Shown here: in pieces, positions 47,403 through 53,946 of the stretch | How the letters are laid out: each line of letters begins with the position of its first letter | How positions within the stretch are numbered: position 1 is the first letter of the stretch | Assembly (NCBI RefSeq): GCF_007748175.1 | Contig: NZ_CP037422.1 | Location: 372,001-436,000, forward strand | DNA: 64,000 bases | Direction of reading: 5' to 3' | From: Gimesia aquarii | GTDB lineage: Bacteria > Planctomycetota > Planctomycetia > Planctomycetales > Planctomycetaceae | Translations under genes and position numbers: made by a program | Notes under the pieces: model-generated | Database searches by the model: none | What the model saw: the letters and a program-made list of their open reading frames with translations, nothing else | Told to the model about the DNA's origin: nothing

Positions 47403-47637
47403 ATTGGTTGCTCTCTGGTCTGAAGCCATTTTTCTACCACCTCGCATTTCCCTCCTTTGATCTTTGTTCCCGATAGCGTCTACTCACTTTTCCCATAGAC
47501 TCGACTTTCCATAAACTAGCTGGTGAAGTACACTTCCAGTCCGAAAAATATTTCTTAACAGCACGCCTGAATCCTGCATTGAATGTAGTAATGCAGATCA
47601 CCAATTGAAGAGGTTGTGCGGCGGAAAGGAGTCTGCC

Positions 47638-48948
47638 ATGTCATTCGTACCGACCCGGTTCATTCACGCAAGTAACCTGCATCTTGACCATCAACCACAG
47701 GGGATAGGGAAGGTTGACAGCGAATCACAAATGATTCTCGAAGATTGTACGCTGACAACCTTCGAGCAGGTGATTAAGGCTGCTCTCGAACATGAAATTG
47801 ATTTTCTGTTGCTGACAGGTAATACCTTGATCGAAGAAGATCACAGCATTCGCGCTAAAATTTCATTCGTAGAAGGTTTGCAGCAACTGGCATCTGAAAA
47901 CATTCAGGTCTTTATCCTTCCAGGTCAGCACGATCCGCTGAGTGTCTGGCACTCTCAATTTCATTGGCCAGGCAACGTCACATTTCTCTCGCCGCATGAT
48001 CACGACATTATTGACATCATGCGTGCTGATGAAACCATCGCGACGTTGCAGGTTCTGGAATCCGCTCATTACAAAACAGAGCAATCCTTAAAGCTGAATC
48101 AGAGAAATCAACTGTTCAATCAGCACGATCAACGCGCCATTTCCATTGGTATTCTTCCCGCCAAGGTAACAGAGGAAAAGACTGATCATGATTGTGAATT
48201 AGAGCACTCACCCTCGCAAGTTGTATCGGATCAATTTGAAGAAGTCAGTTTTGATTACATTGCATTGTGTAAAGGAACTCAGCGGCATACGTTTGAAATG
48301 CAACCAGGCATTGCTCACCATCCCGGCGTAGCTCAGGGACTGAATTTCAACGAAAGCGATAATAATGGTGTTACTTTAGTCACAATCAAACCAGAAGAGC
48401 AGTTGGAACTTCACTTGTTGAATCTCGCCACCGTTCGCTGGTTAGTGATCGAATTACAGATAGATCCAGAATGCTCCCGAAAACAACTCAAGCATCTTAT
48501 GCGCGAAGCTCTCTTTTCTTATCAAAATGCTGTTTTTGAAAAAGTCTGGATGGTGCGTTGGCAATGGGATGGCTCAGGCGAGCTATTTCAGTCTCTGAAT
48601 ATAGCCGAGAATCAAAGTGATTTAGGTTTAGAAATCGCGAGCGAACTCAGAGACCACCTGCCTGTTCGAATTGAACAATGCTTTGAACTGCAAGCCGATA
48701 CTGCGAAACTCACCAGCAGGTCAGCATCTTTAGTAAAACGTTATCATGATCAGCTTGAAGCATTCCAAACAGATACAGACACACCACTGAAACAATTAGT
48801 CACACATGTTGCGCATCTTGACCAGACCTGGTCACGCCGCATGGAGTCAATGATTCAGAATATGAATGAGCAACGTATCTTTAATACAGCCATCCGAAAC
48901 GGACACAATTGGCTTAACATCTCTTCGGATGAGGAAGTGCACTTATGA
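47638..48948 (+). CDS. SbcD/YhaO-like metallophosphoesterase with degenerate metal site
   Basis: 436 residues from ATG 47638, chosen for AAAGGAG upstream. The calcineurin-like/Mre11-type fold begins RFIHASNLHLDHQ. Expected metal-ligand motifs are altered: DxH is Asn13-Leu-His15, GDxxD is Gly60-Asn61-Thr-Leu, and GNHD is Gly-Gln97-His98-Asp99. His15 and His98 remain, but three acidic or Asn ligands are replaced. Nuclease activity is therefore doubtful. Residues 250-436 are a helical cap-like region. The stop overlaps the start of the ATPase gene (ATGA), so the two should be made together as a complex. Confidence 0.8.
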   Translation: MSFVPTRFIHASNLHLDHQPQGIGKVDSESQMILEDCTLTTFEQVIKAALEHEIDFLLLTGNTLIEEDHSIRAKISFVEGLQQLASENIQVFILPGQHDPLSVWHSQFHWPGNVTFLSPHDHDIIDIMRADETIATLQVLESAHYKTEQSLKLNQRNQLFNQHDQRAISIGILPAKVTEEKTDHDCELEHSPSQVVSDQFEEVSFDYIALCKGTQRHTFEMQPGIAHHPGVAQGLNFNESDNNGVTLVTIKPEEQLELHLLNLATVRWLVIELQIDPECSRKQLKHLMREALFSYQNAVFEKVWMVRWQWDGSGELFQSLNIAENQSDLGLEIASELRDHLPVRIEQCFELQADTAKLTSRSASLVKRYHDQLEAFQTDTDTPLKQLVTHVAHLDQTWSRRMESMIQNMNEQRIFNTAIRNGHNWLNISSDEEVHL

Positions 48949-51900
48949 AAATCACCAGAATCCATATCGACGAATTTGGAAATTGGAATGATCTGAACCT
49001 TGCGCCCTTCAACGCAGGGGTTAACGTTTTTTATGGACCCAATGAAACGGGTAAATCGACTTTAATGCGAATGATTCGCAGTGTCCTTTATGGATTTCAG
49101 ACTGAGGGAATTCGTGAGCAGTCACGTGTACCAGATTCGACTCATTGGTCTGCCTTACTGGATATTAAACATAAAGGACAAGTCTACGAAATTCGTCGTC
49201 AGACGAATTCCAGAGATAGAGGTCACTTTTCATTTCAAGGAGAAACGCGGGGGCTCTCGAACCAGGACCTGCTCGCCTCTCTGCATGCTGGTGTAAATGA
49301 AAGCGTATTCGAAAATGTATTTGCGATTGGCTTAAATGAATTGCAGGAGCTGGGAACACTACACGGCGATCAAGTTGCTCAACATATTTATGGACTCTCT
49401 TTGGGACCAGAAGGCCAGGCGATACTTGATGCTTCCAGCGAGGTAGTGAGATCAAGGCAGCAACTCTTGAGTCCCGACTTCAAGACCGGAAAGCTGGTCG
49501 ATCTTTATCAAAAACTTGATGATGTGAACGCGAAACTTGCTGACTTAGAGCAGCAAACACAGCGATTCTTCAGTCTGTCCGATGATTTGCAAATGCTATG
49601 CACGGAATCAGACAGTCTTAAAAAACGGAGAGAAGGTCTACAATATCAAATTCGAGGGCATCGATTTCTCGACCGTATCTGGAAGCCATGGCAGGAAGTA
49701 CAAACGCTGCATCAGAAATTGAGACAACTTCCAGTCGTCAACGACTTTCCAGAAGATGGCGTCGCACTGCTGAATGATTACGATCGGGAATTAAAACAGA
49801 TTAAAGAAAAATTGACCGAACTAAAGGTGGATCTGAAACGAGTAAGTGCAGAAGCAGAACAAAATAAAATTGACAACGACCTGCTCAACTTCGCGCCAAA
49901 CATACAAAGTCTGGTTGATCAGAAAAACTGGATCATCGATCTGGAACGCCAGTACAAAGCAGGAGAAACCCGGGCACGTGATGCTGAACTCACATTACAA
50001 AAATATCTCGGCCCGAATCAGACTCTTGACGAGATCAGTCATATTAAAACGACCCCCGACAACAACCAACGCCTCATCGATGCCGCGCATCAGTATCGGA
50101 TCGCGTTAAGAAAACGCAAGAATACACATCAGCGATACAAAAAAGTTTCGCGAAAATACCAGCAAACGCTAGCTCACCTTCAGGAACAATCGAATCGATT
50201 ATTAAATGGGCATTCGATCGATGAAGAATTGCAGAAAGCACGCGAACGAATGAAACATCTGGAACGTCTTAGCCAGTTACGGATGCGTGAGTCAGAATGC
50301 ATCATTCGACAAGAAGCCGTCAAAGAGCAGTTGGCGCGGCTCCAAACACATTCCCGGATTCCCAGTTGGGCCAAAAAAACGCTTTTCGGTTTTGCACTAG
50401 CTGGAATACTGTTACTCATTGCTGGTGCTTGGCGCGGAGTAACCGATGTTATTTACATCGGCTTGATTTACTGTCTCACGGGATTGTTTCTGGGTGGAAC
50501 GACATGGGCGATCAAAAAACATTTTGAAGTCGATGTCGATGATCAAGTAGAGGATTTGCAGGATAAGAGTTGGGCCTTAGACGTTCATCTAAGAGAAACG
50601 CGACAGGAGATCGAACGCCTGCTGGAAGATGAATATTTTTCCTTAAAGCTCATTACCGAAGGGCATTCGCTGACGACTGACCGATATCGAGAGAATATCC
50701 CCGAGTTGAATTTCAACGATGAAAACATTCTTCGTGCGGATTTGCTGCATGGACTGGCTTTAAAGATCGGTGAACTGGAGCAGTTGAAAGTAGCACAAGA
50801 ACAGACACAGAAAACACGCCAGTTACTGGTGAAATTGAGAAACCGTTCTCAAGAAATTCAACGAGAGTTTAGCAGCAAACGGCATGAATGGTGTGAATGT
50901 CTCAAAGAACTAGGATTAACTGAGACACTGAAAATCAATGAAGCATTTCAGATGTGGCAGCATGTTTCTAACGTTCATTTACACGCTGATCAATTTCAGC
51001 AGGAAAAAAAACGTATCCAGCCCCTGGGTGAAATTATCAATGCCTATTCCTCTCGTGTACATGACCTGGGGCAGCGTATGGGGCGCAATCAGCACGAGTT
51101 TGACAAACCATTCGAAGTGGTTTCCCAATGGGAGTCCGAGATTGAAACGTTCGCTGAACATCAAAAAGAACTGACTCGCTTGCGTAAAGAAGAGCAAAAA
51201 ATATCCCAGGAATCAGATGTTCTGGAATTAAAACTCGAAGAACTAAATCACAAATGCTCGAGATTATTAATCCGTGGGGGAGCGGCAAATCGAGACGAGT
51301 TTATCCAACGAGCCGTTTCACTCGAAGAACGCATTCAGCTTGAGAGTGTACTGGAAGATGCACAAGCCGAATTGGAAAAGGCCAGTCGATCCGAAAACGA
51401 GCTTGCGATAGTTGAAGAAGATCTTATGGATTTTAATTCAGATGAAAATGCTGAGCATCTGGAAATGCTGAATTTAGAACTGGAAGACATTGAAAGTGAT
51501 CTGGTGACAACTGCGGAAAATATGGGACGCCTGAAACAGGATTATCAGAACGCTAAAAACGACCGTAGTTCCGCCCATTTACGTTTTGAGCGGGAACAGA
51601 TTCTTGAACAAATCCGACAGGCTAGTGAAAAATGGTTTTCGGCTGAAGCTTCCTCGGTAGGTTTGAGTAAGTTGCGTTCAGAATACGAACGCAACTGCCA
51701 GCCTGAGACCCTTGCAATCGCTTCTGAATACCTTAGTCAATTAACCAATGGGAAATACAAAAACATTTGGACTCCTTTGGGAGAACAGTTTCCCAAAATT
51801 GACGATCAACAGGGGCAAACATTAACTGTCAGTAAACTCAGTAGTGGAACGCGAGAGCAACTGTTTTTGGCGATCCGGCTGGCAATGGTAGAACGCTTTC

Positions 51901-52682
51901 GAAATAACGGTGTTGAACTACCTATGATTCTGGATGATGTACTTGTGAATTTCGATCAAAGTCGGACAGTCGCTGCGATAGAAACATTAAATACTGTTGC
52001 AAAGAAAGGGCAGCAATTTTTGTTATTTACCTGCCATCTGCATTTGGCCCGATTGTTTGAAGAACACGGTTGTCCTCCAGTCAGGTTACCGGACTCAAGC
52101 TCACAATCAGCAAATTCTCCGAACCAGTTTCCTCCTCAAAATGACGAGACTGAACAAAAAAAAGAACGAGAGTCTTTATTAGGCAGGCGAGACTACCGTA
52201 GGGACCACTCGCATGCTTCCTCGACCGTTCACAGTCAACTCATTCCGCCGTTCTATTTAGATCGTTCCATGCCTGTCGAGGAAGCACCTTCCATTGGCGT
52301 CAAAACTGCAAATCGACTGGGAAAAATTGACATTTTAACGGTCAACGATTTTCTAGAATGTAATCCAGAAGTAGTCTCTAAGAAATTAAAGGTTTCGCAT
52401 ATCAACCAAAATACGATCCGCGAATGGAAAAAGCAGGCCAAGCTTGCTTGTTGTATTCCCGGACTACGAGGTCATGACGCTCAAATATTGGTCTCCTGTG
52501 GATTTTTTGAACCGGAAACAATCGCCCATACTTCACCCCAGGTACTCTTCGGAAGAGTGAAATCGTTTATCAAAACGAATGCAGGGCGAAGAATTATTCG
52601 TAACGGCAAAAAACCGAATTTTAAGGAAGTCTCTAATTGGATTCTCTGGGCTCAGAAGGCACGAGAGCTAAAGGCCGCATAG
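48945..52682 (+). CDS. SbcC/YhaN-like ATPase with membrane helices and DUF4332-like tail
   Basis: 1245 residues. Walker A PNETGKSTLMRMI sits at about 29-41, followed by long coiled-coil arms (about 180-470 and 560-900). The signature motif SKLSSGTREQLFLAIRLAM and Walker B PMILDDVLVNFD (about 960-1010) complete the ABC/SMC-type head. Between the arms, where SbcC/Rad50 has a zinc hook, lie two hydrophobic helices (about 480-525: LFGFALAGILLLIAGAW, then YIGLIYCLTGLFLGGTTWAI), as in YhaN-type proteins. No CxxC hook was found. The C-terminal about 140 residues look like a DUF4332 helix-hairpin-helix module (EEAPSIGVKTANRLGKIDIL). A membrane-tethered DNA-binding ATPase is the simplest reading. Confidence 0.85.
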   Translation: MKITRIHIDEFGNWNDLNLAPFNAGVNVFYGPNETGKSTLMRMIRSVLYGFQTEGIREQSRVPDSTHWSALLDIKHKGQVYEIRRQTNSRDRGHFSFQGETRGLSNQDLLASLHAGVNESVFENVFAIGLNELQELGTLHGDQVAQHIYGLSLGPEGQAILDASSEVVRSRQQLLSPDFKTGKLVDLYQKLDDVNAKLADLEQQTQRFFSLSDDLQMLCTESDSLKKRREGLQYQIRGHRFLDRIWKPWQEVQTLHQKLRQLPVVNDFPEDGVALLNDYDRELKQIKEKLTELKVDLKRVSAEAEQNKIDNDLLNFAPNIQSLVDQKNWIIDLERQYKAGETRARDAELTLQKYLGPNQTLDEISHIKTTPDNNQRLIDAAHQYRIALRKRKNTHQRYKKVSRKYQQTLAHLQEQSNRLLNGHSIDEELQKARERMKHLERLSQLRMRESECIIRQEAVKEQLARLQTHSRIPSWAKKTLFGFALAGILLLIAGAWRGVTDVIYIGLIYCLTGLFLGGTTWAIKKHFEVDVDDQVEDLQDKSWALDVHLRETRQEIERLLEDEYFSLKLITEGHSLTTDRYRENIPELNFNDENILRADLLHGLALKIGELEQLKVAQEQTQKTRQLLVKLRNRSQEIQREFSSKRHEWCECLKELGLTETLKINEAFQMWQHVSNVHLHADQFQQEKKRIQPLGEIINAYSSRVHDLGQRMGRNQHEFDKPFEVVSQWESEIETFAEHQKELTRLRKEEQKISQESDVLELKLEELNHKCSRLLIRGGAANRDEFIQRAVSLEERIQLESVLEDAQAELEKASRSENELAIVEEDLMDFNSDENAEHLEMLNLELEDIESDLVTTAENMGRLKQDYQNAKNDRSSAHLRFEREQILEQIRQASEKWFSAEASSVGLSKLRSEYERNCQPETLAIASEYLSQLTNGKYKNIWTPLGEQFPKIDDQQGQTLTVSKLSSGTREQLFLAIRLAMVERFRNNGVELPMILDDVLVNFDQSRTVAAIETLNTVAKKGQQFLLFTCHLHLARLFEEHGCPPVRLPDSSSQSANSPNQFPPQNDETEQKKERESLLGRRDYRRDHSHASSTVHSQLIPPFYLDRSMPVEEAPSIGVKTANRLGKIDILTVNDFLECNPEVVSKKLKVSHINQNTIREWKKQAKLACCIPGLRGHDAQILVSCGFFEPETIAHTSPQVLFGRVKSFIKTNAGRRIIRNGKKPNFKEVSNWILWAQKARELKAA

Positions 52683-52698
52683 CGAGTCTCAAACATTT

Positions 52699-53946
52699 TT
52701 ATTTCTTTATAGTTGAAATCAGATGCCTTCTTAGTAAATTGAGTGCTACTTTTGTGACTCGACTTTTGGCAATCGCTCGATTCACTGTTAAGCCAATCTC
52801 TTCTACTAACTCAATTCCATCAGCAACGAGAGCTACAAAAGCCTGTGGAACATTTTCCGTATCTTGCCAGGATTGATCGATATCTAAAACAATTGAAATC
52901 GCAAAATCACAGGCATGTTGCTGTTGCGTTTTCTTGGCCAGTGTAATGGCTGCATCAGCATTAAATGCAGAATGGTTGTCTTCCGCTTGATTCGGTTGCA
53001 GACTGGAAAGGTTGTGTTTTGCGAAAATCATGCCTCCTGCATAGCAACCATTTGAGCCTGCGACGTCCGTCAAACGGTAAGACAGCAGTCCTCCGGTACC
53101 GCACTCACTAGTCGCCAGAGAGAGATGTTGTTCATTGAGCATGGTCACAACGACATGCTCTAGTTCTTCATCTTCATAGCCATAAATGTAGTCTCCCAGT
53201 CGCTCATGAATGATGGCATCTGTCTCAGCAATTTTCTGTTCACAAACCTCAACAGACTCACCAACGGCTTTGATTCGTAATGTGATTGTCGCCTCATGTG
53301 CTGTGATTCCAACCTCCGGGTCCCGCCCCCGACTGGTAATCTCTCCCAGAAGTTCTTCTGTTTTCGATTCCCCGACACCAAAACAGTTAATACGAACAAA
53401 TCGAATTACATTCGATCCTTGGGTGAGACGGGGCAAAACAGACTGATGAAACATCGGTTTCATTTCTGAAGGGACGCCCGGCAGCGCCGCGATACAGCAA
53501 TTTGTTTTTGAATCTATGTGTGGGACAACCATCCAGATTCCCGGGGCAGTTCCATGTAGATTCTGGATTGGTTCAGAACCTTTGGGAAACATGGCTTGAA
53601 TCCGATTTCGTTCAGGCATCTCGCGATAGCGCTTTTGAAACATGTTTTCAATAACTCGGAGAGAGTTTTCATCCAAAATCAGATCGACATCCATTAATTC
53701 GGCCATCGCCTGCCGTGTCAGATCATCCAATGTTGGTCCTAGTCCTCCCGTGATCAATACCACGTCAGAGCGTTGCGTGGCAACTCGGAGTTGATCAACA
53801 ATTTCATCGATATGATCAGCGATTGTGGAATGGAAGTGTGTCGAGATTCCGATCGCAGCTAATTGCGTACTTAACCATTGGCTATTGGTATCCAGCTTTT
53901 CTCCATTTGTCAGTTCGCTACCGATGGCAATAATTTCTGCTCGCAT
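52699..53946 (-). CDS. cinA: CinA family protein with altered deamidase domain
   Basis: 415 residues. Start ATG 53946 with GGAAGAA upstream. Residues 1-170 are the molybdopterin-binding-like domain (EIIAIGSELTNGEKLDTNSQ, ITGGLGPTLDDLTRQA), and a middle domain follows. The C-terminal NMN-deamidase (PncC) domain is recognisable from VAGSNGCYAGGMI, but its catalytic motif ESCTGG is ECGTGG and the SNEAK lysine region reads AKHNL. The N-terminal domain may hydrolyse ADP-ribose, whereas the deamidase half is probably inactive or changed. It converges on the ATPase gene 16 bp away. Confidence 0.88.
   Translation of the reverse strand: MRAEIIAIGSELTNGEKLDTNSQWLSTQLAAIGISTHFHSTIADHIDEIVDQLRVATQRSDVVLITGGLGPTLDDLTRQAMAELMDVDLILDENSLRVIENMFQKRYREMPERNRIQAMFPKGSEPIQNLHGTAPGIWMVVPHIDSKTNCCIAALPGVPSEMKPMFHQSVLPRLTQGSNVIRFVRINCFGVGESKTEELLGEITSRGRDPEVGITAHEATITLRIKAVGESVEVCEQKIAETDAIIHERLGDYIYGYEDEELEHVVVTMLNEQHLSLATSECGTGGLLSYRLTDVAGSNGCYAGGMIFAKHNLSSLQPNQAEDNHSAFNADAAITLAKKTQQQHACDFAISIVLDIDQSWQDTENVPQAFVALVADGIELVEEIGLTVNRAIAKSRVTKVALNLLRRHLISTIKK

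Follow-up and report, generated by a model that had tools for sequence, protein, structure and literature searches.

A YhaN/YhaO-type gene pair of Gimesia aquarii with a probably nuclease-dead phosphoesterase and a predicted membrane ATPase

A phosphoesterase gene and an ATPase gene of Gimesia aquarii form a YhaN/YhaO (SbcE/SbcF) system in which the metal ligands of the phosphoesterase are lost and the ATPase is kept. Such a pair is likely to hold or sense DNA at the membrane and not to cut it. The reading we favor is that of a nuclease-dead YhaN/YhaO, with a structural pseudo-nuclease on a membrane-tethered, ATP-driven DNA clamp. The window (the whole stretch of DNA analyzed, 64,000 nucleotides) belongs to a genome of 7.2 Mb in a single contig (completeness 99.8%). 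Both open reading frames that the initial annotation had reported are present at its coordinates, with the following features, all on the + strand:

47626–47631, +, Shine–Dalgarno-like AAGGAG of the phosphoesterase gene, seen in the sequence (the upstream reading GKESAM recurs in relatives)
47638–48948, +, phosphoesterase gene, 436 aa, SbcD/YhaO-like, with Mre11 fold, capping domain, and C-terminal helices
47656–47688, +, motif I, RFIHASNLHLD (Asp of DxH replaced by Asn13; His15 is Arg in most congeners)
47809–47841, +, motif II, LLTGNTLIEED (Asp of GD replaced by Asn62; second Asp lost)
47917–47937, +, motif III, LPGQHDP (Asn of GNHD replaced by Gln97; His98 present, Ser in five congeners)
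48142–48165, +, motif IV, SIGILPAK (metal-2 His of HTS lost)
48256–48288, +, motif V, YIALCKGTQRH (both His of GHxH lost, now Lys and Thr)
48945–48948, +, ATGA in which the stop of the phosphoesterase and the start of the ATPase overlap, seen in the sequence
48945–52682, +, ATPase gene, 1245 aa, YhaN/SbcE-like (AAA_27/Rad50-like), predicted membrane ATPase
49035–49058, +, Walker A, GPNETGKS (residues 31–38)
50385–50504, +, predicted transmembrane hairpin halfway along the coiled coil (residues 481–520), flanked by Lys/Arg on both sides
51837–51860, +, ABC signature, LSSGTREQ (residues 965–972)
51918–51944, +, Walker B, LPMILDDVL (residues 992–1000)
52287–52658, +, C-terminal DUF4332 (PF14229), helix–hairpin–helix-like, in a single copy (two in most congeners)

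The phosphoesterase starts with the ATG at 47638, 3′ of the AAGGAG, and the ATGA overlap would couple its translation to that of the ATPase. As a single sequence, the phosphoesterase stays below threshold for the Pfam Metallophos model (19.4 bits vs. a cut-off of 21.5), and there is a weak match to the DNA_pol_E_B model. With a profile of 19 relatives, the top matches are Mre11/SbcD chains (E 2e-5). The AlphaFold2 model (90-row alignment, pLDDT 82) superposes on human, yeast, archaeal, and E. coli Mre11/SbcD with Z of 20–22 over 268–311 residues, a match that spans both the nuclease and the capping domains. On this model, the protein has the Mre11/SbcD fold, capping domain included. Helices at residues 364–426 follow C-terminally to the Mre11-like part, at what would be the place where Mre11 binds the root of the Rad50 coil.

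Enzymes of the Mre11 type use seven metal ligands and a catalytic His (PMC3175470, PMC4996933). At the positions of D8, H10, D49, N84, H173, H206, and H208 (P. furiosus Mre11 numbers), the window protein has N, H, N, Q, P, K, and T, with a His at the catalytic position. In the P. furiosus structure, we take metal 1 to be bound by D8, H10, D49, and H208 and metal 2 by D49, N84, H173, and H206. The set formed by the ligands of DxH, GDxxD, GNHD, H, and GHxH with the catalytic His is thus incomplete in the window protein. Three ligand losses had been pointed out before, and Asn13 and Gln97 stand as described, as do the neighboring His15, His98, and Asp99; the third, placed at Asn61, is in fact Asn62 (residue 61 is Gly). 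That account overlooked the C-terminal losses in motifs IV and V, with GILPAK in place of LLHTS and LCKGTQ in place of LGHIH. Since these C-terminal ligands are gone too, only His15 is left of the seven. His15 does not qualify as a surviving conserved ligand, because 13 of the 16 genomes of the genus have Arg there and only the three-member subclade of the window has His. This subclade is nested among Arg lineages, so that His15 is probably secondary.

The loss is not a peculiarity of the window genome, since it extends over the whole class and appears stepwise. No homologue examined in the class has a complete metal-2 site (0/111). In the class without the family of the window, the complete metal-2 set and the catalytic His each occur in 0/49 (N84 in 1/49, H173 and H206 in 0/49), and the complete metal-1 set in 34/49. 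In the family, neither the complete metal-1 set nor any residue belonging to metal 2 only is found (0/62 for both). Sister species with intact ligands do not occur: The metal-1 and metal-2 sets are both absent from the 16 members of the genus and from the 46 others of the family. The positions of the seven ligands are occupied by Asn, mostly Arg, Asn, a variable residue, another variable residue, Lys, and Thr; we did not observe in the family a His/Asp/Asn set at aligned positions that would make an alternative two-metal site. The class-wide loss, with no metal-1 set in the family, supports the pseudo-nuclease first proposed from the window alone. A loss throughout the phylum is rejected, since the phosphoesterases of other planctomycete classes are intact. 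All eight positions are intact in the 11 transmembrane systems outside the class (11/11) and in the soluble “type B” paralogues found in planctomycete genomes (11/11).

In a maximum-likelihood tree of 137 ATPase heads, the class loci with dead sites, type C (see below) included, form one clade with SH-aLRT of 100; support is given as SH-aLRT, and long branches make the finer placement of single loci unsure. All transmembrane systems of the class fall inside this clade and every intact system sampled falls outside. Metal 2 and the catalytic His appear to have been lost first and metal 1 later; a parsimonious reading is that metal 2 and the catalytic His were lost once, on the stem of the class, and that metal 1 was lost afterwards in the family. 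A His stands at the catalytic position in 13 of the 62 proteins of the family, 11 of which belong to the genus; this His may have been retained or regained. Half-site phosphoesterases, without metal-2 residues and catalytic His, occur in Pirellulales and other families of the class (L087, L117–L167, L179–L188) and are possibly mononuclear enzymes or intermediates. A degenerate phosphoesterase is also present in Verrucomicrobia among intact relatives (L145), with the first Asp and His kept and the others lost; this loss is separate from that of the class.

Within the family, the substitutions do not look wholly random, because Asn, Arg, and Asn co-occur at D8, H10, and D49 (26 of 62 members) and because new residues have become near-invariant (DPxxxW and HxPG). 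One could thus imagine that the degenerate pocket has been repurposed: Its Arg in place of a metal-1 ligand and its two Asn (N-x-R ... GN) would bind a nucleotide, a DNA end, or a phosphate of DNA, and the pocket would gate the ATPase as a sensor without metal. The pattern is spread over several branches (13/16 of the genus and 13/46 of the other family members), and the derived DPxxxW and HxPG residues would fit such a pocket; but the pattern is missing from more than half of the family, and the subclade of the window itself has His instead of Arg, so that we consider this reading rather unlikely. Hydrolysis with one metal or with other residues appears very improbable. The complete metal-1 set in 34 of 49 class members makes a mononuclear site conceivable outside the family, but in the family there is neither a metal-1 set nor a metal-2 residue, and the position of the catalytic His varies. 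A change of that His alone is enough to abolish nuclease activity in P. furiosus Mre11 (H85S; PMC8824468), and SbcD H84Q serves as a nuclease-deficient variant (PMC6265447). A structural, non-cutting phosphoesterase is the reading we retain.

The ATPase has the head of the AAA_27/AAA_23 type (PF13514, 55 bits vs. a cut-off of 22). Its Walker A, signature, and Walker B, as well as two hydrophobic segments instead of a zinc hook, are as first annotated; the H-loop is also intact (residues 1028–1033), the nucleotide-binding motifs are conserved in a 17-row alignment, and CxxC does not occur anywhere in the protein. The transmembrane segments are called from hydropathy only, and the two at 481–520 are consistent with a hairpin whose two ends are cytoplasmic. 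We considered whether this hairpin was new to the pair and rejected it: The same hairpin is present in ATPases of Bacillota, Desulfatibacillum, Aminicenantes, Chloroflexi, and other planctomycete classes, as in those of the class of the window, and in Bacillota, Desulfatibacillum, Chloroflexi, and the other planctomycete classes it adjoins fully intact phosphoesterases. Because of this distribution, it is an inherited YhaN/SbcE feature, ancestral to YhaN. The soluble type B ATPases have no hairpin. A separate trend concerns the C terminus: In the family outside the genus, Ala-Gly forms the very end of 24 of 46 ATPases, frequently as (R/K)xAG (for example L077, L079, L064, and L075), and no ATPase in the rest of the class ends in this way (0/49). 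An overlap with a downstream gene does not account for this ending, as no overlapping gene is seen.

At the C terminus of the window ATPase, DUF4332 scores 60.3 bits (cut-off 23.2). The model of this tail has a pLDDT of 74, and its best fold matches, none of them significant (E of at least 0.27), include the HhH regions of DNA polymerase iota, RAD51C, and LigA. The tail is thus present, as the initial annotation had it, but it is an addition at the level of the genus that resembles the tail of type C, and not a defining part of the complex. Within the family, DUF4332 occurs on a transmembrane ATPase only in the genus of the window. There is one copy in the window species, in its nearest relative, and in one further lineage, and there are two in other congeners. 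A search of the window genome gave no DUF4332 other than this tail. A third Mre11–Rad50-like system of the family, type C (L246, L247, L248, L250, L251, L257, L073), has a soluble ATPase with two C-terminal DUF4332 and a phosphoesterase that is very degenerate wherever the gene is complete in the locus. The window tail is 39%–45% identical to type C tails over ∼143 residues, mostly with the same ARxLxAA-like end, and the two-copy tails of congeners align to both type C copies. On these alignments, the simplest reading would be that the genus acquired its tail by fusion or exchange with type C.

The phosphoesterase and ATPase genes are adjacent, and their reading frames open, in nearly all loci. 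In the phylum-wide sample, the ATPase is present in each of the 46 family genomes listed (10 from the genus, 36 from elsewhere in the family) and in none of the 11 genomes of family f3. Three good-quality genomes of the family (G024, G025, G035) gave no phosphoesterase match in the first single-sequence search. Within the genus, dN/dS is 0.06–0.40 for the phosphoesterase and 0.07–0.17 for the ATPase, and the neighbors of the locus are syntenic; beyond the genus, the only conserved neighbors are the two genes of the pair. In its main text, the paper on essential genes of P. limnophila makes no mention of the genes of the pair.

That the phosphoesterase gene is decaying and functionless might be read from its faster divergence compared to its partner (48%–61% vs. 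68%–73% identity to most congeners), but dN/dS, frames open nearly everywhere, the conserved coupling to the ATPase, and retention throughout the class rule out a pseudogene, and we give decay next to no credence. An anti-phage system of the Lamassu/Rad50-like kind, in which sensing of phage DNA triggers an effector, is quite improbable. The PADLOC model for LmuB does match the ATPase (E 5e-16), but what it recognizes is the shared ATPase and coil, and no effector gene is conserved beside the pair, which disfavors Lamassu or another defense system. Moreover, defense islands are patchy, whereas the ATPase is present in every family genome sampled, with synteny in the genus and a tree that roughly follows relatedness. 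Lamassu LmuB and the window ATPase thus share a Rad50-like ATPase, and the pair differs by its lack of conserved effector partners and of a patchy distribution.

Other systems occur in the window genome. A 455-aa Rad50-like ATPase followed by an intact phosphoesterase, T4 gp46/gp47-like, is found at ∼5.12 Mb (L259, 6474–8778), so that the window pair is not the only Mre11-like system of the cell. At ∼4.38 Mb, an SMC-like ATPase (1142-aa frame) is preceded by smaller genes (L258), a layout that may resemble a Wadjet/Mks-type operon. The type B pair was not found in this genome, nor was any match over the cut-off of the sbcC model, which also misses its cut-off in most control genomes. Next to the pair, a CinA-like gene (window 52699–53946, − strand) has the C-terminal motif SECGTGG where we take ESCTGG to be usual; its deamidase site may thus be altered.

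The closest known system is YhaN/YhaO (SbcE/SbcF) of Bacillota (examined at loci L168 and L172), with the same order of phosphoesterase and ATPase, an AAA_27-type head, a hairpin in the coil, and no zinc hook. The Bacillota phosphoesterases have all eight catalytic residues, whereas the window pair has lost the ligands and gained a DUF4332 tail; without the intact two-metal site, the window pair would be a nuclease-dead derivative and not an active member. With SbcCD/Mre11–Rad50, it shares the Mre11 fold, the capping domain, the ABC ATPase heads, and a long coiled coil, but it has a membrane hairpin and neither zinc hook nor nuclease site. Type C shares the tail type, the dead phosphoesterase, and the clade of ATPase heads, but has no transmembrane hairpin. 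An inactivated calcineurin-like phosphoesterase beside a DNA enzyme is also known as a scaffold in the B-subunits of eukaryotic DNA polymerases alpha, delta, and epsilon, with archaeal DP1 active (PMC4996933); those have another partner and architecture and are not close relatives. Of the YhaN/YhaO systems, only that of B. subtilis has a known role in double-strand break repair, as reported for SbcE together with competence (Krishnamurthy 2010, cited in PMC4205851); an interaction of SbcE with SsbA is reported as well (PMC7031210). We found no description of a nuclease-dead SbcEF in the CC BY literature, a scope that does not include the SbcE paper itself.

In the nuclease-dead reading, the phosphoesterase would no longer bind two metals; as a dimer seated on the ATPase heads, it would bind DNA and have a structural role. 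The ATPase itself would still cycle as a Rad50/SMC-like clamp whose heads grip DNA in an ATP-dependent manner, with the phosphoesterase dimer bracing heads and DNA without cutting. The apex of the coil, at the site of the zinc hook in Rad50, would be fixed in the membrane by the transmembrane hairpin, and we propose that DNA gripped by the heads is thereby held to the inner membrane. In the genus of the window, the helix–hairpin–helix-like tail may add a further contact, probably with DNA. The effect would be to tether DNA to the membrane during repair or uptake or for the organization of the nucleoid. Insertion in the membrane, binding of DNA, and a clamp or tether role in repair or nucleoid organization are what we infer from these features. 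A wider reading, which we hold as tentative and doubtful as a whole, is that the class converted its membrane Mre11–Rad50 machine to a tether or sensor of DNA that is driven by ATP and does not cut: The metal sites would have been lost successively, an Arg/Asn phosphate-binding pocket would have replaced the metals in one family, a soluble, DUF4332-tailed dead paralogue would have split off, and such a tail would have come onto the membrane form in the genus of the window.

Whether Mre11–Rad50 has roles apart from cutting DNA is usually addressed with engineered mutants. Here, nuclease-dead forms with intact ATPase motifs occur naturally and are stably inherited across a class, together with half-site forms (metal 1 kept and metal 2 lost). 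In some genomes, dead systems coexist with live paralogues (for example, L053 and L054 of one congener). These systems offer natural material, in cultivable planctomycetes, for testing the structural role of the phosphoesterase and the anchoring to the membrane.
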